From Diadema setosum (lineage: Eukaryota > Echinodermata > Echinoidea > Diadematoida > Diadematidae): a stretch of 64,000 nt of DNA. Under the pieces are notes generated by a model. That model did not search any database and had not been told where the DNA came from. It saw nothing but the letters and a program-made list of their open reading frames with translations. Both the position numbers and the translations under genes were made by a program. This document shows, one piece after another, positions 1-64,000 of this stretch (positions are counted from its first letter, which is position 1; every line of letters begins with the position of its first letter). The stretch covers positions 2,819,709-2,883,708 of the forward strand of contig CM067062.1 of NCBI GenBank assembly GCA_033980235.1, read 5' to 3'.

Positions 1-1145
1 CAAATACACTTTTTAACAATGAAAAGTCATGGAAATGATAGAAGAGGTTTAACTTTGCAAGATCTATGCAGTGGAGAGGGTGCACATAAAAATGGCAACC
101 CTGTGGTATGTGCCAAAAAATATTCCGGCAATATAAAATCATATAATGCGAATATGTAAATGTTCCAAACGTGTATGTCTTCAAAATGCCATCGTACCGT
201 ATAGCAAAGGCCCTTTTGTGTCCAAGAAATACAACTTATTAATAGAGGAGACATTGCTCTACAGTAACTATATTGTCAAAAGGGTGAACAGTCAAAATTA
301 ATCCCTTGGGAAGTGTCCAAATTCACACCTAAGCTCACGCCCTCTTGTTACAGAACGCATATATTAGCAACGCAAATACCGTTGTTCTAGCGTGAATGGT
401 TGTAAAAGTAGTCCCGGTAATACAGCAAATACAATTTTCATCGATGGGCAATAATGGAAATGATAGAAAAGACTTAACTTTACAAGATCTATACAGTGAA
501 GAGGGTGCGCATTATACGGCAACCCTGTGGGATGTGCCAAAAATACTCCACCCTCACCGCAATATAGAAAACATTATAATATCATATAACGCAAATATAA
601 TATATCTGTTCTAAACGTACGTGTTTTCGAAATTCCATTGTGCCGTATAGCAAAGGCACTTTTGTATCCAAAAATGCAACCAATTACTAGAGGAAGCATT
701 GCTCTACAATAACTACATTGTCAAATAGGTGAACATTCAAAGTTAATCTTTGGGGAGATGTCTAAATTTACACCTACGCTCACGACCTTTATTACAAAGT
801 ACGGATATTAGCAACGCAAAATACAGTTGTTCTAAGTAGGTCCGGCAATGCAGTAAATACACTCTTACATCAATGAAAAGTCATCGAAATGATGGAAGAA
901 GATTTACCTTACAAGATCTACATGATAAAGAGGGTGCTTATTGAAGGGCGACCCGGTGCCGTGTGCCCCCAAAATGCCCTTTGTAATCCTCTTGGCAATA
1001 TAGAAAACATATAATATCTTATAACGCGAATATATGTGTTTCAAACGTACATGCTGTCGTGCTTATAGCAAGGGCACGTTTGTTTCCAAGAAATGCAATG
1101 TACTGAGTAATCAATACAGATTGTCACATAGTTCTTTACCTCAAG
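1..1145. repeat. Three tandem copies of a ~424-bp repeat
   Basis: GGAAATGATAGAA-type blocks recur near 30, 453 and 877, each followed by an AACTTTRCAAGATCTAT-like block, a GTGCC segment, a TAGCAAAGGCAC-like segment and CAACGCAAATAC. The third copy is shortened after about 1100. No protein frame spans them. Confidence 0.8.
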
Positions 1146-6841: not shown

Positions 6842-7548
6842 ATTATGTACGACGCACGACGCACGACGCACGACGCACGACGGACGGCAAACGAAAAACA
6901 ATCGCAATGGCTTGCTCACTCGAGCCTTGAGCTCGGGTGTGCTAAAAATGTGTCCTGCCTCTCTTAAATGTAGGACCATATCTACCTTAACTTATTGACC
7001 GCATACTTGCAACAATTGTCAAGCTCATCCATGGGTGTTTTAGTTCAGTTACCAAAATGTGCAGGTTGTCCAAAATGTGCAGGCAAATCCACTTTTAACT
7101 GCATATTTTGGAACCCGTTGATCCCATCAGGTATAGATACACTATCGGCACATTTTGGTAACAAATTCTTTTACCAAAATGTGCAGTTACCAAATGTTTC
7201 GGGGGTTTCACATCAATCCCCGTTCTTTTTGGAGGATTCTTGTGGGAAGATTTTAACATTACCCCTATATATTTCGGGGGAAAATATTAAAACACCTATT
7301 ACATTCAAACAATTATTTGTCGGGATTTTATCCCCGATTTGAGCCAGTGAAATACTTCTCTCCCTAAAAGTCGGGAATGAGCATGAGGTGCAGATGACCA
7401 CTTGACGGGTGGGGGGGGGGGGGGGGACATTTAATTTGCCACGGTGGCTTTTTATAGGGTGATATCGTTTCAAATGCCCTCAAGCTGTTGTTAGCGCCCA
7501 TACAGAAAAACAAGCGGGGCGGTTTCTCGCTGGTCGCTGCATGGATCC

Positions 7549-7676
7549 TAGCCTTTTGTCAAGGCCTTCTCGCTGTATGGTGAAGAGAGCCCAGCTGAGT
7601 GGGGTTGCGCGCTGTCGCGCTCGGTTGGGTTCGCTTCGCTCGCCCATTACAGCGAGAGGGCCTTGACAAAAGGCTA
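7549..7676. mobile_element. 128-bp MITE with 9-bp target duplication
   Basis: The ends TAGCCTTTTGTCAAGGCC... (7549-7577) and the inverted copy (7648-7676) pair over 29 bp with one mismatch. Both sides carry the direct repeat CATGGATCC (7540-7548 and 7677-7685). A 9-bp duplication fits Mutator-like or related transposons. Confidence 0.8.
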
Positions 7677-7689
7677 CATGGATCCCGTT

Positions 7690-11756: not shown

Positions 11757-11765
11757 TTTTCCACA

Positions 11766-11935
11766 CATGACGTCACAATGTCTTGTAGTCTTCTCATCCA
11801 TCGATGGCACCACCAAGAGAATAAAAATTCCTGACTGTTCAACAGATCGTTCGATTTTCTTCAAACTTCGCTGATGTGTTCTATAATGCTACTGCATTCA
11901 CCCTCAATCCACATTTGGTTTCATTCCCCTTTATG
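11766..11935 (+). mobile_element. Half copy of the AGGACAAGTCC MITE
   Basis: TGACGTCACAATGTCTTGTAGTCTTCTC, CGTTCGATTTTC, TGTGTTCTA and CACCCTCAATCCACAT follow the order of the right arm of the MITE at 53791-54350. The end is diverged. Confidence 0.6.
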
Positions 11936-38115: not shown

Positions 38116-38513
38116 AGGAATGACCCAAGAAATGAAATTATCCTCACTGCTGCGAAAAGTCGAATGAAATTAATGACTACTAAAAATATAGTTGCAATAA
38201 GCTGGTGTTCATAGTTCCACTTTGCGCATGAGCAGAAATAATATCACACAATATTTTATAGGCATGCTGCTTTTTAGATTTTTTTTTTAATGAGCCTCCG
38301 TAATGCGATAAGTATTCGTGTAATGATCATAAATAGTACTTGATGGCACATCTACCTGACAGCATGCAAGCCTCGTATTCGGCAGTATTGATAGAAAACG
38401 ACTAATTAATGCATTCAAACTAAAATGATGAAATAGATGCCTGCTGAAATGTGGATTTATTCCGGTCACCCGGTCAATAGACGCGGGTCTATTCTTTGTT
38501 AAAAATGAATTCT

Positions 38514-38804
38514 ACCCTCTAAAAAAATTCGAGTGAAAATATTCACTCTTAAAAGAGTGAATACAAAAACGAGTGAATTTAGAGTGAAATTTGAGTGAAT
38601 TTCGAGTGAAAGTGTTCATTTTCACTCGTTTTAGAGTGACGTGAGGGATCACTCCAAAATCTTCGAGTGATCCCTGAGGTCACTCCAAAATGAGTGAAAA
38701 TAAATTCACTCAAAATTCACGCCAATTTCACTCTAAATTCACTCTTTTTTGTATTCACTCTTTTAAGAGTCAATATTTTCACTCGATTTTTTTTTAAGAG
38801 AGTA
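38514..38804. mobile_element. Foldback MITE made of GAGTGAA repeats
   Basis: Nearly the whole ~290 bp is one inverted repeat centred near 38655. The outer arms read CCTCTAAAAAAATTCGAGTG and its inverse, with TA on both sides, fitting a Tc1/mariner-type duplication. GAGTGAA/TTCACTC words recur throughout. Confidence 0.8.
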
Positions 38805-39377
38805 TGAATTGTTACATGCGTATCTATTTCGGACTCGGTCGATGGTGTGCCAACTTCGTATAAATTCTGCTCAAGCGCACAAACCCGCCCAAACCGATCG
38901 ATAAATCGCCAAATGCCACACTGCCCACAATACAATGAAAGCGTTTCTCGAGATTCTGTTCCTGTTACATAAAGCCTGCATTTTACGTGGTGATTGAGTA
39001 GCAAGCGGTGTTCCCTACTGTATTTGCGTATAAATTCTAAGTTTCTGTCGCTGGTTTCTTTGCAAAACGTATGCCTCTACAGTAATGTAGATACTGGTCA
39101 TTTGAAGGAAAAACAGTCATACTCTGCTTTTCTAGATTTGTCATACAATTTATGTCAAAACAGAGCTTGACATTTTCTCTACAACTTTGCCAACCATATG
39201 TCCAACTTAACTTAAGTCTATTAAAGATAGGTAGATTTGAAAAAAAAATGACTACGCTACCATTAGTGTCTCGTAGTAACGTGGCACACAGGGGGGGGGG
39301 GGTTTCAACCATGGCACATAAAGAGTTAAAAAGGTGTGAAGTGCCGACAGACCAATTCGGTTTGGGTGCTGTTTTAA

Positions 39378-49228: not shown

Positions 49229-49388
49229 GCCCTGTTTCATAAAGCTGTTCGTAAAGTTACGAACAACTTACGAGTGACTGGTGATCAGTTCTGATTGCCA
49301 TAATTTCCATAATTTAGCACTAGAACTGATCACCAGTCGCTCGTAAGTTGTTCATTACTTTACGAACAGCTTTATGAAACATCCCCCA
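49229..49388. mobile_element. Foldback MITE in the putative ACOX3 3' UTR
   Basis: Arms of about 65 bp (left TTTCATAAAGCTGTTCGTAA..., right inverted and ending TTTATGAAACATCCC) pair with few mismatches. A half copy lies at 42485. Confidence 0.8.
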
Positions 49389-49543: not shown

Positions 49544-49663
49544 TCATAGCTTGGCTGGGGCTAGCGAGCCAATCACAGGCTTGTCGAGGAACTCCTTCCA
49601 CCAATCAGGTCGCTGCAGGCATTCCGGGGTCTGGAGGATGGCATTGTACAGCCGCTTGTAGAT
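49544..49663 (-). CDS. Acox3: ACOX3 terminal exon with peroxisomal signal AKL
   Basis: The acceptor is ctctcacccacag; 120 nt including TGA at 49546-49544. It encodes IYKRLYNAILQTPECLQRPD and WWKEFLDKPVIGSLAPAKL. WW.EF...KPVIGSL is the family C-terminus, and the last three residues Ala-Lys-Leu fit the PTS1 consensus [SAC]-[KRH]-L for PEX5-dependent import into peroxisomes. The preceding exon ends ADGE in phase 0, giving ADGEIYK. Confidence 0.93.
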   Translation of the reverse strand: MYKRLYNAILQTPECLQRPDWWKEFLDKPVIGSLAPAKL

Positions 49664-50989: not shown

Positions 50990-51062
50990 CTCTCCATCTG
51001 CACATCCAATGGGGGAGTTGAGGATGAAATCGGGCGGGGCCAGCACATCAACGAGCGCCACT
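50990..51062 (-). CDS. Acox3: ACOX3 penultimate exon, 3' part (after the insertion)
   Basis: It encodes [20 protein letters not shown] and ADGE, then the donor GTAATA. This directly continues the KDLKNEA of 52683-52764; VALVD..APPDF.L.SPIG.ADGE is conserved in ACOX3. The right border is the CACT target duplication (51059-51062) next to the transposon start at 51063. No precise canonical GT-AG pair at the borders would remove the insertion in frame: the acceptor AG is there, but the matching donor would be TG. Confidence 0.88.
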
Positions 51063-52678
51063 CTGCCCCCCCACGGAAGAAAGCAGTAACTGCATAGCTG
51101 CTGAGCTGAGATAAATGCGATTTTGTGTTTTTTGCAAATTCTTTAAAAACACAGAAACATTCAAAAATAATTTTGTGGTATGATTATGCACCATACCTAG
51201 TTGTCTAACAATACCTAGGAAAAAATTATGTTTCCGTTATTTTTTAAATGTTATTTAGAAAAATGCAGTTACTGCGGTGGCTCACCCTTGATTCTGGGTA
51301 GTTTCCCCACGGAAAAAAGCAGTAACTGCAGACGGCCAGGAGTCTGCTGTTTTCCCCATGGAAAAAAGCAGTAACTGCACATGTCACATGACCATAGGAG
51401 GAGAATTGTTACCACCACCAGGTTATAAAGTTCTTCTACTTTCTGGTTAGTCTAGATCTATAAGATCTAGGACCTATCGCTAGACCTAGACTAGGTCTTG
51501 TCGATTGAATGGCATTCTGTGTAAATATAAGGTAGACACCTATGTACCCTAATTGAACTTTGGAGTGCCTGGCCTGGCCCCTGACACATGACCGTGGACT
51601 AGACAATAAAGTCAAGTCTCTTCGTCTTAGATCCTAGTCGAACTCTGACGTTACACTTAAGCTAGACTAATGTTGTTACAGATCTATGCCCAATGTTAGT
51701 GCTAGACCTAGATCTATTACGTTAGATTAGGCCTACTGACATTTTGTCTAACACTAAACAGTTGACAATAGATTAGAATCTAGATCTAGGCCCCTACTCT
51801 GTAACGTTAGATCTGGTAGACCTATTTTAAACTTTAGGGCCTAGGCCTACATCTAACCTTAGACTAACGTTAGTGCATTAATACTAGTGCTCATCTCCCT
51901 TCAATATATTTTCAGCTCACCTAGATTTTCTGGTTCTGGCCAAAGCCATGGCTACCATGACTTTTCCTCTGCAATTCATGATAGATTTACAGGCATGCCT
52001 GGACCGCAGAAACTGTGTGACAGCATGGTTAGCACTGGCATGATCACTCAGACTGTACCAGACCTGCAATACTGTGCACGCCATGCAAGTGATGACTGTG
52101 ATGTGATGCAATGTTTAGCTAGTTACTGTATGCTGCAGAATTTATGCGCATGCAGCTGCTGCACGCGTATTCTGCACTCTGAGCGCGCTGAGTCTGCCAG
52201 GTTTGCTAGTCTCCAGAAAGAAGCTTTTTCTACAACTTGTCATATGATTCCCTGCGGGCAGAGTCAAGTTACTGGTGAAACAATCTTTTCATATCTACTC
52301 TCCTAAATTATGGGAGAAACTGCTGTTTACATTGTTTAGAAAAAAATAGTAGAACAAATAAATGGTATTAGGGGAAAAAATATACAGGAAGGACTATACA
52401 GAGTCTGAATGACAAAGACTAAATTGTTAGTTACTGCTTTCTTCCGTGGGCTTTGTTAGTTACTGCTTTTTTCCGTGGGGAAACTTGCAAAGTTGAATCA
52501 ACTGGATGCAGTTACTGCTTTTTGCAAAAGTGAAAAATTGTATTTTTGGTCACTTTCATTTTTCTTTTTGCAAAACTGACCTATTAACATTGGAGAGCAT
52601 TGGGTAAACTATTCATTTTTGCAAAAAAGTAAACATTCATAAAAATGTCAGTTACTGCTTTTTTCCGTGGGGGGGCAG
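51063..52678. mobile_element. DNA transposon inserted in ACOX3 coding exon
   Basis: The element is 1,616 bp and flanked by the 4-bp duplication CACT (51059-51062 and 52679-52682). Its terminal inverted repeat starts CTGCCCCCCCACGGAA and continues into a GCAGTAACTG core. The ACGGAAAAAAGCAGTAACTG core recurs near 51305 and 51354 in the left end and, inverted, near 52433 and 52459 in the right end, plus GCAGTTACTGC near 51264 and 52508. These look like subterminal transposase-binding repeats. One 139-residue plus-strand frame (51887-52306) is Cys-rich and unrecognised. No DDE transposase is visible, so it is probably non-autonomous. A 4-bp duplication fits Sola, Ginger or Academ type elements; the superfamily is not decided. 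Confidence 0.88.
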
Positions 52679-52682
52679 CACT

Positions 52683-52764
52683 GCCTCGTTCTTGAGATCC
52701 TTGCACAGAGCGAGGATTCCGTCCCGGATTGAGTGGGCGGGCTGCGGCCCAGAAATATACCCCC
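52683..52764 (-). CDS. Acox3: ACOX3 penultimate exon, 5' part (interrupted by transposon)
   Basis: The acceptor is ttttactctcag. The segment encodes (G)GYISGPQPAHSIRDGILALC followed by KDLKNEA, then runs into the inverted repeat of the transposon at 52678. Read into the element, the frame continues through Pro-Pro-His-Gly codons and stops within about 10 codons. Together with 50990-51062 it makes an uninterrupted 155-nt exon, counting the duplicated CACT once. The phase is right at both ends (2-nt start, phase 0 end). Confidence 0.88.
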
Positions 52765-52794: not shown

Positions 52795-53034
52795 AATACT
52801 GTATACTTCATATATTTCGCGAGTCTAAATTTTTGCGAATTGGGAACTCCCGACGATTTCGCGAGTGGTTAAATTCGCGATCGTGAAGTCGTGTACTGAA
52901 CGGAGAAGTGTACCCGCGTATGTCACACTCATATCGGGATCAGAGTCAATATTTTTGCGCATCTTTAATTTCGCAAATAGCACCTGACTCGCGAAAATAA
53001 AAACCTCGCGAAATATTCGCCGTATACAGTACTT
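52795..53034. mobile_element. MITE with TACTGTATAC ends
   Basis: The ends TACTGTATAC...ATATTTCGCGAG are inverted at 53034. The interior is rich in TTCGCGA. Its left end is only 31 bp from the 5' edge of the split ACOX3 exon (52764). Confidence 0.75.
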
Positions 53035-53720: not shown

Positions 53721-53790
53721 TTAGAGGTGATGGTCCAAGTTTGACCCCTTATGCACTTAGGCACTTATCATAGGTACAACTGTATCTTAA

Positions 53791-54350
53791 AGGACAAGTC
53801 CACCTTCATAGACATGTGGGTTGAGTGAATGCAGCAATATTAGTAGAACACATCAGTGAGAGTTTGAGGAAAATCGGACAGTCCGTTCAAAAGTTATGCA
53901 TTTTTAAAGTTTCTGATCAATCACGGCTGGATGAGAAGACTACTATAGCTTGTGATGTCACATGTGTACAACCATTTAAAGAAAGAATAAAGAAAATTTA
54001 ACATATTTCCATTTTTCTCACATAACAAAAGAACACTCGACTTCTCTCTTTCAGAGGGCAGGGGGAATAATATTACCCTTAACATACCACAGTAACAAGT
54101 CGAAGAAATGTGCACTTTATTTAAAAAGTAAAGTTTTGTTAAATTCTCTTTTTATTTTCCTTTTATTACTGTGCGCATGTGACATCACACACTGTAGTAG
54201 TCTTCTCTTCCAGCAGTGACTGTGCAGATACTTTAGAAGTTCATAACTTTTGAACGGATTGTCCGATTTTCCCAAAAACTTTCACTAATGTGTTCTACTA
54301 ATATTGTTGCCTTCACTCAATCCACATGCATATGAAAGTGGACTTGTCCT
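53791..54350. mobile_element. TTAA-type MITE, AGGACAAGTCCAC family
   Basis: AGGACAAGTCCACCTTCATA at 53791 is inverted at the right end, after TTAA on the left and TTAC on the right. The arms pair far inward (GTGATGTCACATG, CAAAAGTTATG). 11766-11935 is a half copy. Confidence 0.8.
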
Positions 54351-54372
54351 TTACTTGCACACAGCTGCTTAA

Positions 54373-55069
54373 CCCTTACTTACCTGGGCTATTTTGTGAG
54401 CTTAAAGTCCTGGGGGGGGGGGGGAAATTGGCATGCGAGTCACTCATGATGCAATCTATTGGGCTGTGTGGATAAATTTCATTAAATCGCTCTATTCTAT
54501 TTTATATGAATTAATTATGTTAATTTATGCATGAAATTAGAATTTGGCTGTAAATCATTAAATAAAGCCCCCAAACTTCAAAATTTTTTGCTTGAAGACT
54601 CTTTGGTAAATTCTGATTAAATTTAAGTTGAAAAAAAATTGGCATCAATTCTCATTTCTTATGTATTTTTTGTTTTTTAACTTTTTGTTTTTTACTGTTT
54701 TTTCAATGAGAATCATTGGCCATACCATTTCAATCATAAGAATCATAAAATTAATTGCTTTTAATCACTAAAAGTAAAAAAAATGATACAATTATGATAT
54801 TGAGATAGAAACCTAATTTGCATTGGTTTTGTACACAAAATGACGTTTTTGAGCAATTTTTGGTCTGACATGCACTTACATAATGTTGCGTAACTTCAGA
54901 ACCGCGTACCCGGACGTCGCAAATTTGGTCTTAAAAGTTGTGCAAGGCTTCAAGGTAAATTGTCACGAATCGCCGTGTGGATGGGTTCTCGCGTTGCGGA
55001 GATATCGCGCGAAGTATCGAGGGGGGGCCATTATGCCCCCCCCCCCCCCCCCCCCCCGGTAAGTTAGGG
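54373..55069. mobile_element. TTAA-flanked CCCTTACTTACC element (orientation 1)
   Basis: TTAA, then CCCTTACTTACCTGGG on the left; CCCGGTAAGTTAGGG, then TTAA on the right (54369-54372 and 55070-55073). The interior has GACGTCGCAAATTTGGTCT near 54913, shared with the inverted relative at 56598-57370. Confidence 0.8.
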
Positions 55070-55337: not shown

Positions 55338-55473
55338 CTTGGTAAAGAGTAGCCATGTGCTTCTCCAGCCTCCAAAGACCATAGAGACTACAGAGCTTGG
55401 TCAGAACTGTCGCCTGCTCAGGGAGCAGATCGTTGGTCCTGATGAAGTCCGCAAAGCGAGACAAGAACGTCAG
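55338..55473 (-). CDS. Acox3: ACOX3 exon with LYGLWRLEKH
   Basis: The acceptor is ccgttgcag and the donor GTGTGT; 136 nt. It encodes LTFLSRFADFIRTNDLLPEQ followed by ATVLTKLCSLYGLWRLEKHM and ATLYQ, plus one nucleotide. FIE-LTFLSRF across the junction and LC.LYGLWRLEKH..TLYQGGY across the next match the family. It lies between two inverted copies of a TTAA-flanked element in the neighbouring introns. Confidence 0.9.
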
Positions 55474-56356: not shown

Positions 56357-56511
56357 CTCTATGAAGGCGATGGCCAATGTACGGCAGTGGAAGACTTGGC
56401 TTTCATTTCTAGCAGTGAACATATCATTTCCATCCATGAGCTGCTTTTGGAACTTCTGCCCACTCTCCCTCAGTAGGTAGACCACCAGCCACTGGTAGGC
56501 ATCCATGATAA
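56357..56511 (-). CDS. Acox3: ACOX3 exon with YLLRESGQK
   Basis: The acceptor is gtccccag and the donor GTACCT; 155 nt, 2-nt start, phase 0 end. It encodes VIMDAYQWLVVYLLRESGQK, then FQKQLMDGNDMFTARNESQV and FHCRTLAIAFIE. The pattern Y.WL..YLLRES.QK and ARN..QV.H...LA.AF.E matches the C-terminal helical domain of ACOX3. Confidence 0.9.
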
Positions 56512-56597: not shown

Positions 56598-57370
56598 CCC
56601 TATTCTAACTGGGGGGGGGGGGGTCAAATTGACCCCGCCCTCGACGTTTCGCGCCACGATTTCGCAACGCGCAAAGCTTTTGCCGCGTAACGACTTTCTT
56701 TCATTGAAGTCTCCCGCATATTTTGAGACCAAATTTGCGACGTCCAGATACATCGTTTTGAAGTTACATAATGTTTTGCATGGCATATGCATGTCAACCA
56801 AAAAACAACTCAAATTCATGATATCGTGTGCAAATCCAATGCAAATTGTGTTTTTTGGTTAAATTGATATGAATTAGATTATTTCAACTTTTAACCATTG
56901 AAATTAATCAATTCTAGTGTAGATAAGCCTGAAAAAGTGCCTGCAACAAGTTTTGGCAAAAAAAAACAATAGAAAACAAGAGATTGAAAAAACAATAAAA
57001 TACATAAGAAATTAACAAAACAATACAAAACAAAAGAAATTAATTTCAATTGAGCTATTGTTTTTACACGAAAATTGTTTGATGTGTCTTGAGGAATTCT
57101 GACACAAAAATATAGCAATTCTCCAGTCTTTTCAATGGAGTTATAGGTGAAAATATGATTTCATGCCCAAATTTGCATAATTAATTTATTAAAAATAGAA
57201 TGGCAATATTTTTCTATTGTATGATGATGTAATCTTGTAGTTGTCATCCAGCTCTATCTTCAGGCAAAATTTCGTGGTGATCGCGCGATCGGCGGCTGAG
57301 ATCTGAAGGGGGGGTCAAATTGACCCCCCTCAGTAAAAACTTGGTCTCAAATAGCCCAGTTAGAATACGG
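56598..57370. mobile_element. Relative of the 54373 element, opposite orientation
   Basis: CCCTATTCTAACTGGG on the left and CCCAGTTAGAATACGG before TTAA (57371-57374) on the right. The interior AGACCAAATTTGCGACGTC is the reverse complement of the word at 54913. Both ends have a GGGGTCAAATTGACCCC palindrome inside. Confidence 0.75.
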
Positions 57371-57873: not shown

Positions 57874-57978
57874 CTTTTGGATTCCTCACATCGGCATCTG
57901 GGAGAAATCTTTGGCAAGCGATCAAGTCAATGGAGTTCAGGAAGTCCACAGACCCCATCGGGGATGTCACCTTCTTTC
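57874..57978 (-). CDS. Acox3: ACOX3 exon with MGSVDFL
   Basis: The acceptor is tgctcacag and the donor GTGGGT; 105 nt. Two nucleotides complete a Gly codon. The product reads KKVTSPMGSVDFLNSIDLIA then CQRFLPDADVRNPK and leaves one nucleotide. The SP.GSVDFL segment starts the C-terminal acyl-CoA oxidase domain of ACOX3-type proteins. Confidence 0.85.
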
Positions 57979-58999: not shown

Positions 59000-59122
59000 C
59001 CTTCTGTAGCCTGAGAGCCATAGCCAGGAGATAGTTGCTCGTCTGCTGAAGCAGGACGTTGTTGTCGCCCTCATACGTACAATTCGGATCGTTATCATCC
59101 CTCAGGACACCAAATCTGTTTA
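59000..59122 (-). CDS. Acox3: ACOX3 exon with catalytic glutamate (TYEGD)
   Basis: The acceptor is cactctgcag and the donor GTGAGG; 123 nt. The first two nucleotides complete a Val codon, giving [20 protein letters not shown], then [21 protein letters not shown]. The Glu of TYEGD is the expected catalytic base that takes the alpha proton of the acyl-Co[16 protein letters not shown] is characteristic of ACOX3 rather than ACOX1. It exits in phase 1. Confidence 0.93.
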
Positions 59123-60032: not shown

Positions 60033-60153
60033 CCCAGAGGTAGCCGTGACCCCCGCAGGCCTCCCTACACTCCTGGATACAGTCCCTGGCTAACCAGCTG
60101 CTCATAGGTTTGCTGGCAGAACTCAGCACGTGTATCTCCTTGCCAACCTCAAG
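60033..60153 (-). CDS. Acox3: ACOX3 exon with [11 protein letters not shown] motif
   Basis: The acceptor ends ...gtaatag and the donor is GTGAGT; 121 nt, phase 0 in and phase 1 out. It encodes [20 protein letters not shown] then [21 protein letters not shown], where the last Gly or Val codon is completed by the next exon. CGGHGY is the acyl-CoA oxidase signature that lies by the flavin and substrate site. Confidence 0.93.
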
Positions 60154-61200: not shown

Positions 61201-61323
61201 AGCATTGATATTCTTGTCTCCTTTTGCCACGGCACTGCGGAAACGAGCGAGCTGCTCCCCCAAGTCCCTGCTGAAGCGGTGGACAACGTATGCAGCTGCT
61301 ATGTATGGAAGCAGTCTCCATTG
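61201..61323 (-). CDS. Acox3: ACOX3 exon QWRLLPYIAA
   Basis: The acceptor is ctcattggcag and the donor GTGAGT; 123 nt, 41 full codons. It encodes QWRLLPYIAAAYVVHRFSRD followed by LGEQLARFRSAVAKGDKNINA. The QWRLLPY.AA.Y segment is diagnostic for ACOX3-type oxidases, and the following region corresponds to the linker helix before GKEIHAL. Confidence 0.88.
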
Positions 61324-61961
61324 CTGCCAATGAGAGGGGGATCAATTATTATTATTTCTTTTTTAACACAAAATATATATTGACATATCTAGTGCATTCA
61401 GAGTCAATTTCTCCCAGGTACTAGTCGCTTCTTGGTTACACGATGCAACTAATGACCCTTTTGCAACTGATCGGCAAACTGTCCTACATCAACGTAAATA
61501 TGCCATATGATAAGATATGATACGATACGATGCTTATTTAAGTCGATGTAGGGCAATTTGTCAATCAGTTGCAATGAAAACATCTCGACGGAAGAATTTC
61601 ATGAATTTGAATAATGACCCTCTGTTCATAAAATGTAGTGGGTTCTGAAACAGATGAATGGTAACAAACAACTAATGCTACAAACAACTTGTTAGTATTT
61701 ATTGTGAGGTTGTTTTACCTGTCTTCACAAAAAAAAAACTGGGATGAACCAAGGGGATCTTATCTTTAATACTCAATTATAGATCACTGTATGCTGATAT
61801 CTCCATCATTCTAAATCAATTGCAGCTACATCAATGAACACAAACATACTTCTATGACAGAAATTGGTTCCCAACCTTTCTAGATTTGAATGTTCATTAT
61901 TCAGTTTCCTTATCATGTATTTTCTCATTACCTTATTTCTTCTGTCACCGAGATTCCTTAA

Positions 61962-62342
61962 AGGGATTGTACAGTTTTGGTTGAGACCTAATTTCAGGTT
62001 TCAAACATTTTTTGGTGAGATAATGAGAAACCTCTTGTGAAAGATGAAAGAGCATGTAATTCCATGAGGAAATCAACGTTTATTTGATGAAAATTTGTTT
62101 TGAAATGGCTGAGATATCCAAACAGAGCAATTCTAATAAAGTGTGGGACTCACATTTTATTATGATCACTTTGTTTTACTTTGTTTTTGGATGTTTCAGT
62201 CATTCCAAACCCGATTTTCACCAAATAAACTTTGAATTCCCCTTAAAATGGTATGCTTTGTACTATTTCATAAGTGTTTTCTTGGTATCTCGCAAAAAGT
62301 TAAAAGCCCAATTCTCAGCTCCACCAATACTGTACCATCCCT
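61962..62342. mobile_element. TTAA-flanked MITE, AGGGATTGTACAG family
   Basis: AGGGATTGTACAGTTTTGG at 61962 is inverted as CTGTACCATCCCT at the right end. Perfect TTAA flanks are at 61958-61961 and 62343-62346. Length 381 bp. Confidence 0.85.
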
Positions 62343-62894
62343 TTAAGAGAATCCATTAAAACAGGACTATGACTAAAAAGGCACTCTGACAGTGCAGACC
62401 TTTGCAAAGCAGCTATTTTCCACCAATGATCTTGCTTTTCCATAGACATCAGTGATTTCCACCCATACATATGCATGCTGAAAAATCGCCCGATTTCCCA
62501 GTATAGAAGCCTTTGTTACGTCATAAAACCCTCAGCTACGCGGTGCGCCTCGCTCTAGCAGAAAGCGCGTATGAAAACTTATAAAATGCGCAGCTTGAAC
62601 TCCCATGTTAATTGACCCTGCCTGCTCAAATATCAAAAATTCTTCATAAAATGTATAAAAATTTCCAGATTACAACCAAAATTTAATCATATGTTCCTTG
62701 TGTCATTCTCAATCTTTCCTGTAAGTTTCGTCCAAGTCCATGCACAACTTTTTAGAGTTATTTCGCACACGGACAAACAAACAAACTAACAAACAAATCA
62801 ACAAACAAATGGTAATGAAAACATAACCTCCTCCCTTGGTGGAGGTAATAAATGAGACCTAACATTGTCACTGGATTGCTACAGGATGCCTGAC

Positions 62895-63077
62895 CTGCAT
62901 CTGGTATTCCAGCACGGGGAGCTCTTCATCGGGCGTTGGTCCAAACTGTCTCCTGGCAGCAGAGTACCTCACAGCGATGGCGATGGCCATTTTTAGGTTG
63001 CAGGCGGCCATGGCAGTGATACCTACCCTGCCACCAGACAGGGCCGCTAGGGATGCAGCGAACCGCTCCTTGGGGTC
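62895..63077 (-). CDS. Acox3: ACOX3 exon (5'-most in window)
   Basis: The acceptor (minus strand) is ttttctag and the donor GTCAGG; the exon is 183 nt, phase 0 at both ends. It encodes DPKERFAASLAALSGGRVGI, then the helix TAMAACNLKMAIAIAVRYSA, then ARRQFGPTPDEELPVLEYQMQ. The VRYSA.RRQFGP string is the conserved FAD/dimer-contact region of acyl-CoA oxidases. The codon after it joins directly to the next exon's QWRLLPY. The preceding exon was not found between here and 64000. Confidence 0.9.
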
Positions 63078-64000
63078 CTAGAAAACATCAAACAATCCTA
63101 CTCATCATCTTTCCTGGAAGCAGCACTTAATACATTTACAAGTTGTGTCTATGACCACTGACTGATGAAAAGGTCTGTAATTCATTATACACTAGTAGTA
63201 ATGCTCTGCACAAGGGTATTTCAACAATTTGAGGATGGGTTGATTTTGCTGCAACACACATTTCCCATAAACACCTGCCCGAGTATACTTGGGACTCATC
63301 CTCAATGGGCTAAAATACTTGTGTGAAATGAATTAAATCTCTCAGTCCAGTAACTCAAAATGCAATTAATATTCAATTGTGTAGAGGCAAGATGAAAATG
63401 GTAATGAAAGGGTTCAGTGAGCATGCATTGCATGTACATTGTGTACAAATCATTTTCCCAATACCGTACAGTATGTCCCCCCAAAAAATTACAATCAAAT
63501 TTTTGCATTGATAACACCCCATATGATTAAACTGTCTAAATGCTACTTCATGGTCTTAAAATATAACATCTTAGCTCTTTTTTTTGCAGAAAACCCCATT
63601 CAATTTGATTAAGCAGTCACAGAGAAATGTGGAATGTTGTAAACCATGTGGTGAGTCTGATTCTTCCAAGTTTAGCACTTATGATGCTTTTGTGTGTGAA
63701 AACAATAGACAGAACTTGGAGGGCAGAGATTCTTGACATCCTCTACAAAATTCCTCATTTCTCTTTGACCACTGAAGCAAATCGAATGGGGTTTTCTGTA
63801 AGATGTAGGCAATGACTTTTAGTTTCATACCCTGAATTTGCATTTGGATTGATTCACTATTTTTAAAGATATCATGACGGAGGGTCCCGTTGTAATTTTT
63901 TGGGGGGACATACGGTATTATCATCCAGTCAATCTTGTGTCAATTTGCTCTAGGCCTTGTTTCAGACAGAAGAAGGGGCACTCACTATCTGCAATACTGT
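63078..64000 (-). other. ACOX3 upstream intron, no exon recognised
   Basis: The exon that should precede DPKERF (with a TPFK-like end in the family) was not found; it lies beyond 64000. Confidence 0.5.

Follow-up and report, generated by a model that had tools for sequence, protein, structure and literature searches.

Transposon insertions in exons that retain intact ends are natural experiments on the removal of transposons from animal mRNA. Tc1 elements in exons of C. elegans were reportedly described by Rushforth and Anderson in 1996, and Zhao et al. (2026) is said to be the primary paper on SOS splicing. In passages of a review, SOS splicing of transposons is presented as cleavage and RTCB ligation (PMC13247085). 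Introners with terminal inverted repeats (TIRs) and 4-bp target-site duplications (TSDs) are also known, and according to sections of one study some of them add codons, 12 bp in the case of Aureococcus (PMC9860276). The words urchin and echinoderm are absent from the main text of that study.

The locus described here lies in a 64-kb window, by which we mean the whole stretch of DNA that was analysed, and consists of a coding exon of ACOX3 split by a 1,616-bp element. Like Tc1 in C. elegans exons and the substrates of SOS splicing, the element is a TIR transposon in a coding exon whose ends are able to pair in RNA; unlike them, it is another element from another phylum and is known here from DNA sequence alone. 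With the DNA-transposon-type introners (PMC9860276) it shares a short TSD, TIRs, insertion into a coding exon, and in-frame splice-like sites near its ends. However, the splice-like sites of the element are weak and none restores the protein exactly, one copy was seen, and its length of 1,616 bp exceeds the family medians of 30–654 nt given in sections of the same paper. The account that we consider probable as a whole is that a TIR transposon inserted into ACOX3 and broke it, giving a recent and likely segregating allele. An event of this kind is ordinary and common, and there is little new in the insertion as such. With its exact borders and conserved frame, it is well suited as a natural test of RNA-level excision; if no healing takes place, it is an ordinary loss-of-function allele of a peroxisomal oxidase.

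The exons of ACOX3 were located by tblastn with the proteins of Diadema setosum, Apostichopus japonicus, and Acipenser ruthenus as queries. This search of the 64-kb window revealed one ACOX3 gene, whose nine exons lie on the minus strand between 63077 and 49544. The most 5′ exon in the window (62895–63077) corresponds to residue ~275 of the Diadema homologue P0002, and further exons were found at 61201–61323, 60033–60153, 59000–59122, 57874–57978, and 56357–56511, with the exon at 55338–55473 lying upstream of the split one. These positions were obtained from tblastn and splice sites. The boundary of the exon at 60033–60153 is less sure, its acceptor score being not above 3, and the exon at 57874–57978 gave the weakest match (tblastn E values of 0.001 to 3.7 with the three queries) and was placed with the additional help of the frame and splice sites. 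The split exon, likewise delimited by tblastn and splice sites, has a 5′ part at 52683–52764, preceded by the acceptor CTCTCAG, and a 3′ part at 50990–51062, which includes one copy of the TSD and is followed by the donor GTAATA. The coding part of the last exon (49544–49663; tblastn and open frame) ends in APAKL and a stop codon. The first ~273 residues of ACOX3 had no match in the window, which ends 923 bp past the most 5′ exon.

Among the matches listed (the best 120 of 1305), the best named homologue of the 396-residue query was an ACOX3-like protein of Diadema setosum, with 66% identity, and Apostichopus was the next among the named ones, with 58%. The last two exons were 80% identical to Diadema setosum ACOX3. 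From these named relatives the window is inferred to come from an echinoderm, probably a sea urchin. Pfam ACOX and acyl-CoA dehydrogenase domains were both found on P0002, the protein that was scanned in place of the window protein. Judged by its closeness to ACOX3 proteins and by its AKL-type tail, the gene is ACOX3.

When the element was left out and CACT counted once, the split exon was 155 nt long and joined both of its neighbours in frame. Its first 2 nt belong to a split Gly codon and it ends at phase 0 before GT, which confirms the 2-nt start and phase 0 end given in the preliminary description. The two halves of the exon meet at KNEAV|ALVD. We compared this site in 193 homologues, made up of the best 120 of 1305 from a first search and all 73 from a second one. 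The site was contiguous, with zero inserted residues, in 192 of the 193 listed homologues, so that the piece ending in KDLKNEA and the piece at 50990–51062 do adjoin each other in ACOX3 proteins, as had been claimed. The other homologue, P0170, is without the exon; it showed 93% identity over 28% of the query, in the last exon only. Two short frames, P0178 and P0180, from ENA contigs of 23 and 17 kb, respectively, carry the exon unbroken and extend into its flanks. No transcript of the same species was recognised among the 73 matches of the second homologue search, the closest being P0170. Because 192 of the 193 homologues do not have the insert and the exon is unbroken in P0178 and P0180, the insert is, within the reach of the compared sequences, found only in the lineage to which the window belongs.

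The nine exons, from residue ~275 to the AKL end, were otherwise undamaged: joined without the element, they gave 406 codons with no stop codon, ending in APAKL. The earlier statement that the flanking exons are undamaged was thus extended to all exons found. These results also bear on the explanation that this lineage can do without ACOX3, or has a duplicate of it, and that the insertion became fixed in a dying gene. Diadema setosum was the only urchin named among the matches listed (the best 120 of 1305, many of them nameless), in keeping with such a loss, but the 406 codons hold no other disabling change and a single ACOX3 gene was detected by tblastn in the 64-kb window. We regard the decay of a dispensable gene as highly improbable.

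The inserted element occupies positions 51063–52678 (1,616 bp) and was classed as a non-autonomous TIR DNA transposon from its TIRs, its TSD, and the lack of a Pfam match in the four ORFs scanned. It is flanked by two copies of CACT, the left one at 51059–51062 and the right one at 52679–52682 on the plus strand. A 30-nt inverted-repeat comparison placed the left TIR at 51063–51092 (plus strand) and the right TIR at 52649–52678 (minus strand), the two being complementary at 29 of 30 positions (97%). The ends of the element read CTGCCCCCCCACGG.../...CCGTGGGGGGGCAG. The borders are exact, because the inverted repeat does not continue past the 30-nt ends and the bases that flank CACT differ between its two copies. 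A 1,616-bp element with inverted ends and CACT on both sides in the ACOX3 exon had been proposed before, and the TIRs and the exact 4-bp duplication identified here sustain this proposal; the target-site duplication is intact, and the exon is a coding one. A rival explanation is an assembly error, a false join that placed the element in the exon. However, a clean 4-bp duplication together with exact inverted ends are marks of transposition and are unexpected from a mis-join, and an error of this kind appears exceedingly improbable.

A 24-nt end motif, searched with up to 3 mismatches, occurred six times in the window, always within the element, and did not occur in 100 shuffles. Three of these copies lie forward in the left part of the element and three reversed in its right part. 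Subterminal copies were located by the motif search at 51305–51328 and 51354–51377 on the plus strand (the latter with 1 mismatch), and at 52428–52451 and 52457–52480 on the minus strand (with 2 mismatches and 1 mismatch, respectively). Such a layout resembles the subterminal transposase-binding repeats of cut-and-paste transposons.

The coding capacity of the element was assessed on 4 of the 33 ORFs that overlap 51000–52750, with the curated cut-off of Pfam. None of these four gave a match above the cut-off (best E value, 0.16), and the longest frame, of 147 residues, had no protein relative at E ≤ 1 among 10 candidates. The candidate of a coding transposon was rejected on both grounds. No Rfam match was obtained in the window at gathering scores. 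No further copy of the element was found elsewhere in the 64-kb window, where the best hit was one 20-nt match with an E value of 0.30, and the 24-nt motif had 0 exact matches in viral_contigs, where copies from animals are expected to be scarce.

EnSpm/CACTA elements end in inverted CACTA-type termini, whereas CACT at this locus is a direct and not an inverted repeat, and this superfamily was rejected. Ginger1 elements, as characterised in part of PMC2836005, have the TSD CCGG or CCGT/ACGG and TGTNR ends; the element has the TSD CACT and ends in CTGCC, and Ginger1 was rejected as well. Repbase assigns elements of this sort by TSD length and terminal match, according to a portion of PMC4455052. 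In our case the TSD is exactly 4 bp (CACT), at one insertion. The element resembles non-autonomous TIR DNA transposons in its inverted ends, its short TSD, its subterminal end-motif repeats, and the lack of recognisable coding in the scanned frames, but differs from those of named superfamilies in that a single copy was seen and no transposase was found. These structural features are best accounted for by a non-autonomous cut-and-paste DNA transposon, which we do not assign to a superfamily. In the portions of the literature covered, on introners, urchin TIR elements, exon insertions that are spliced out, transposon superfamilies, polymorphic insertions in urchins, SOS splicing, and Tc1, nothing was found on this element.

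The effect of the insertion on the protein was deduced by translation. Reading on from KDLKNEAV into the element adds 8 foreign residues (LPPHGKKQ), after which the first in-frame stop codon (TAA) is reached at 52652–52654 on the minus strand, well in line with the earlier expectation of a stop within about ten codons. Read as DNA, the insertion allele loses 62 native residues including the AKL tail; of the earlier statement that about 65 residues and AKL would be lost, the loss of AKL stands and the residue count is corrected to 62. Skipping of the split exon leads to a frameshift and an early stop. An AlphaFold2 model of P0002 was built from 30 proteins and had a mean pLDDT of 76.8, with values below 50 for the last 54 residues. 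The insertion point falls after residue 621 of P0002, in a helix predicted at 599–627. The truncation would remove the end of the Pfam ACOX domain, because this domain spans 494–674 in P0002 and the insertion site follows residue 621. A stop codon upstream of the last exon junction is expected to elicit nonsense-mediated decay.

The preferred explanation, a transposon insertion that broke ACOX3, may be outlined as follows. A non-autonomous cut-and-paste DNA transposon, presumably moved by a transposase, would have inserted at CACT in the coding exon and left the 30-bp inverted ends and the 4-bp target duplication that are read in the sequence. The sequenced copy would thereby be broken, with 8 foreign residues, a stop, and 62 residues lost, among them the AKL peroxisome signal and the remainder of a C-terminal helix. 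The mRNA of the insertion allele would probably be decayed, because the last exon junction is a long way downstream of the stop. The insertion is probably recent and most likely a segregating allele, either heterozygous or rare, since the remaining exons identified in the window show no damage. Among the named relatives the closest shares no more than 66% identity, which leaves the insertion only loosely dated.

The routes open to the transcript make different predictions. Under the preferred explanation a decayed, truncated mRNA is expected; removal by the spliceosome would give a junction with about 27 additional nt, and SOS splicing a healed junction near CACT. That the insertion is tolerated through a healed transcript, be it by natural SOS splicing in an echinoderm or by an introner that adds nine codons, we consider rather unlikely, on the evidence given below for each route.

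Splice sites were scored with rough matrices, and the search for acceptors covered the terminal 400 nt of the element and the following exon. Exact spliceosomal removal was excluded for GT-AG sites, as none of the five registers reads GT..AG. Eight donor-acceptor pairs were in frame and stop-free. The neatest of them combines the donor GCA|GTAACT, 23 nt inside the element, with the terminal CAG acceptor, and leaves 27 nt (nine codons), while the highest-scoring in-frame pair leaves 105 nt. The best pair of any kind was equalled by 57 of 300 shuffles of the element.

These pairs permit an introner-like explanation, in which the spliceosome would cut out the bulk of the element through the GCA|GTAACT donor and the terminal CAG acceptor and add 23 + 4 = 27 nt, or nine codons, to the mRNA. 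An in-frame, stop-free pair does exist, and the known introners with TIRs and 4-bp TSDs offer a precedent. However, by the rough matrices the donor of the element scored 2.0, as against 4.2–9.8 for eight ACOX3 donors, and its acceptor 3.5, as against 5.6–8.0 for eight of the nine ACOX3 acceptors, the ninth being not above 3. The best pair without exon loss was matched by 29 of the 300 shuffled elements, and 235 of the 300 had some such pair. The nine added residues would land in the helix predicted by AlphaFold2, and none of the 192 homologues that hold the site carries such an insert. Because the sites are weak and about a tenth of shuffled elements are as good, we do not favour the introner-like reading, possible though it is, and removal through this particular pair seems very unlikely.

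Of the element ends (51070–51092 and 52649–52671), the one on the left in the transcript sense has no stop codon in any of the three frames before GTAACT is reached. As 23 + 4 nt is divisible by three, an exonic copy of this family would keep the frame if spliced at these sites.

Healing by SOS splicing would require that the inverted ends pair in the RNA, that the insert is cut out, and that RTCB ligates the exon parts into a near-normal ACOX3 transcript. Folding of 1,664 nt of the transcript strand showed that the ends of the element pair end to end, with a probability of 0.73–1.0 at 29 of 30 positions and 0 at the mismatch; 28 of the 30 were paired in the best structure. The 30-nt end duplex had an energy of −57.0 kcal/mol, while the minimum among 947 equally long random segments from the window was −21.5. 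The element contains neither AATAAA nor ATTAAA in its sense strand, which also agrees with this route. However, such pairing is expected of any TIR transposon with ends as long as these and gives no evidence of use. Because TIR ends of this length are expected to pass it, the test of shape makes SOS splicing possible but not likely, and we judge this route unlikely for ACOX3. The broken, probably segregating allele is still the explanation that we prefer.

Several other repeats were observed in the window. A MITE-like short inverted-repeat element with 27-nt arms, 85% complementary (TACTGTATAC.../...GTATACAGTA), was identified at 52797–53031; it lies in the intron before the split exon and starts about 32 nt upstream of that exon's first base. 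A 566-bp foldback at 53788–54353, in this upstream intron as well, has long inverted arms and 76% identity to its own reverse complement, and part of it recurs at 11762–11914 (75%). Six more foldback elements were found at 7543–7685, 38508–38810, 49233–49381, 61461–61574, 61952–62353, and 63467–63917. The last three are in ACOX3 introns, and none of the six overlaps the ACOX3 exons found. Near the start of the window (1–600), a stretch at about 30–90 recurs in diverged form near 450–510, which by eye suggests a tandem-like repeat. Two ACOX3 introns carry inverted copies, 67% identical, of a repeat of about 400 bp, at 54654–55049 and 56611–57012.
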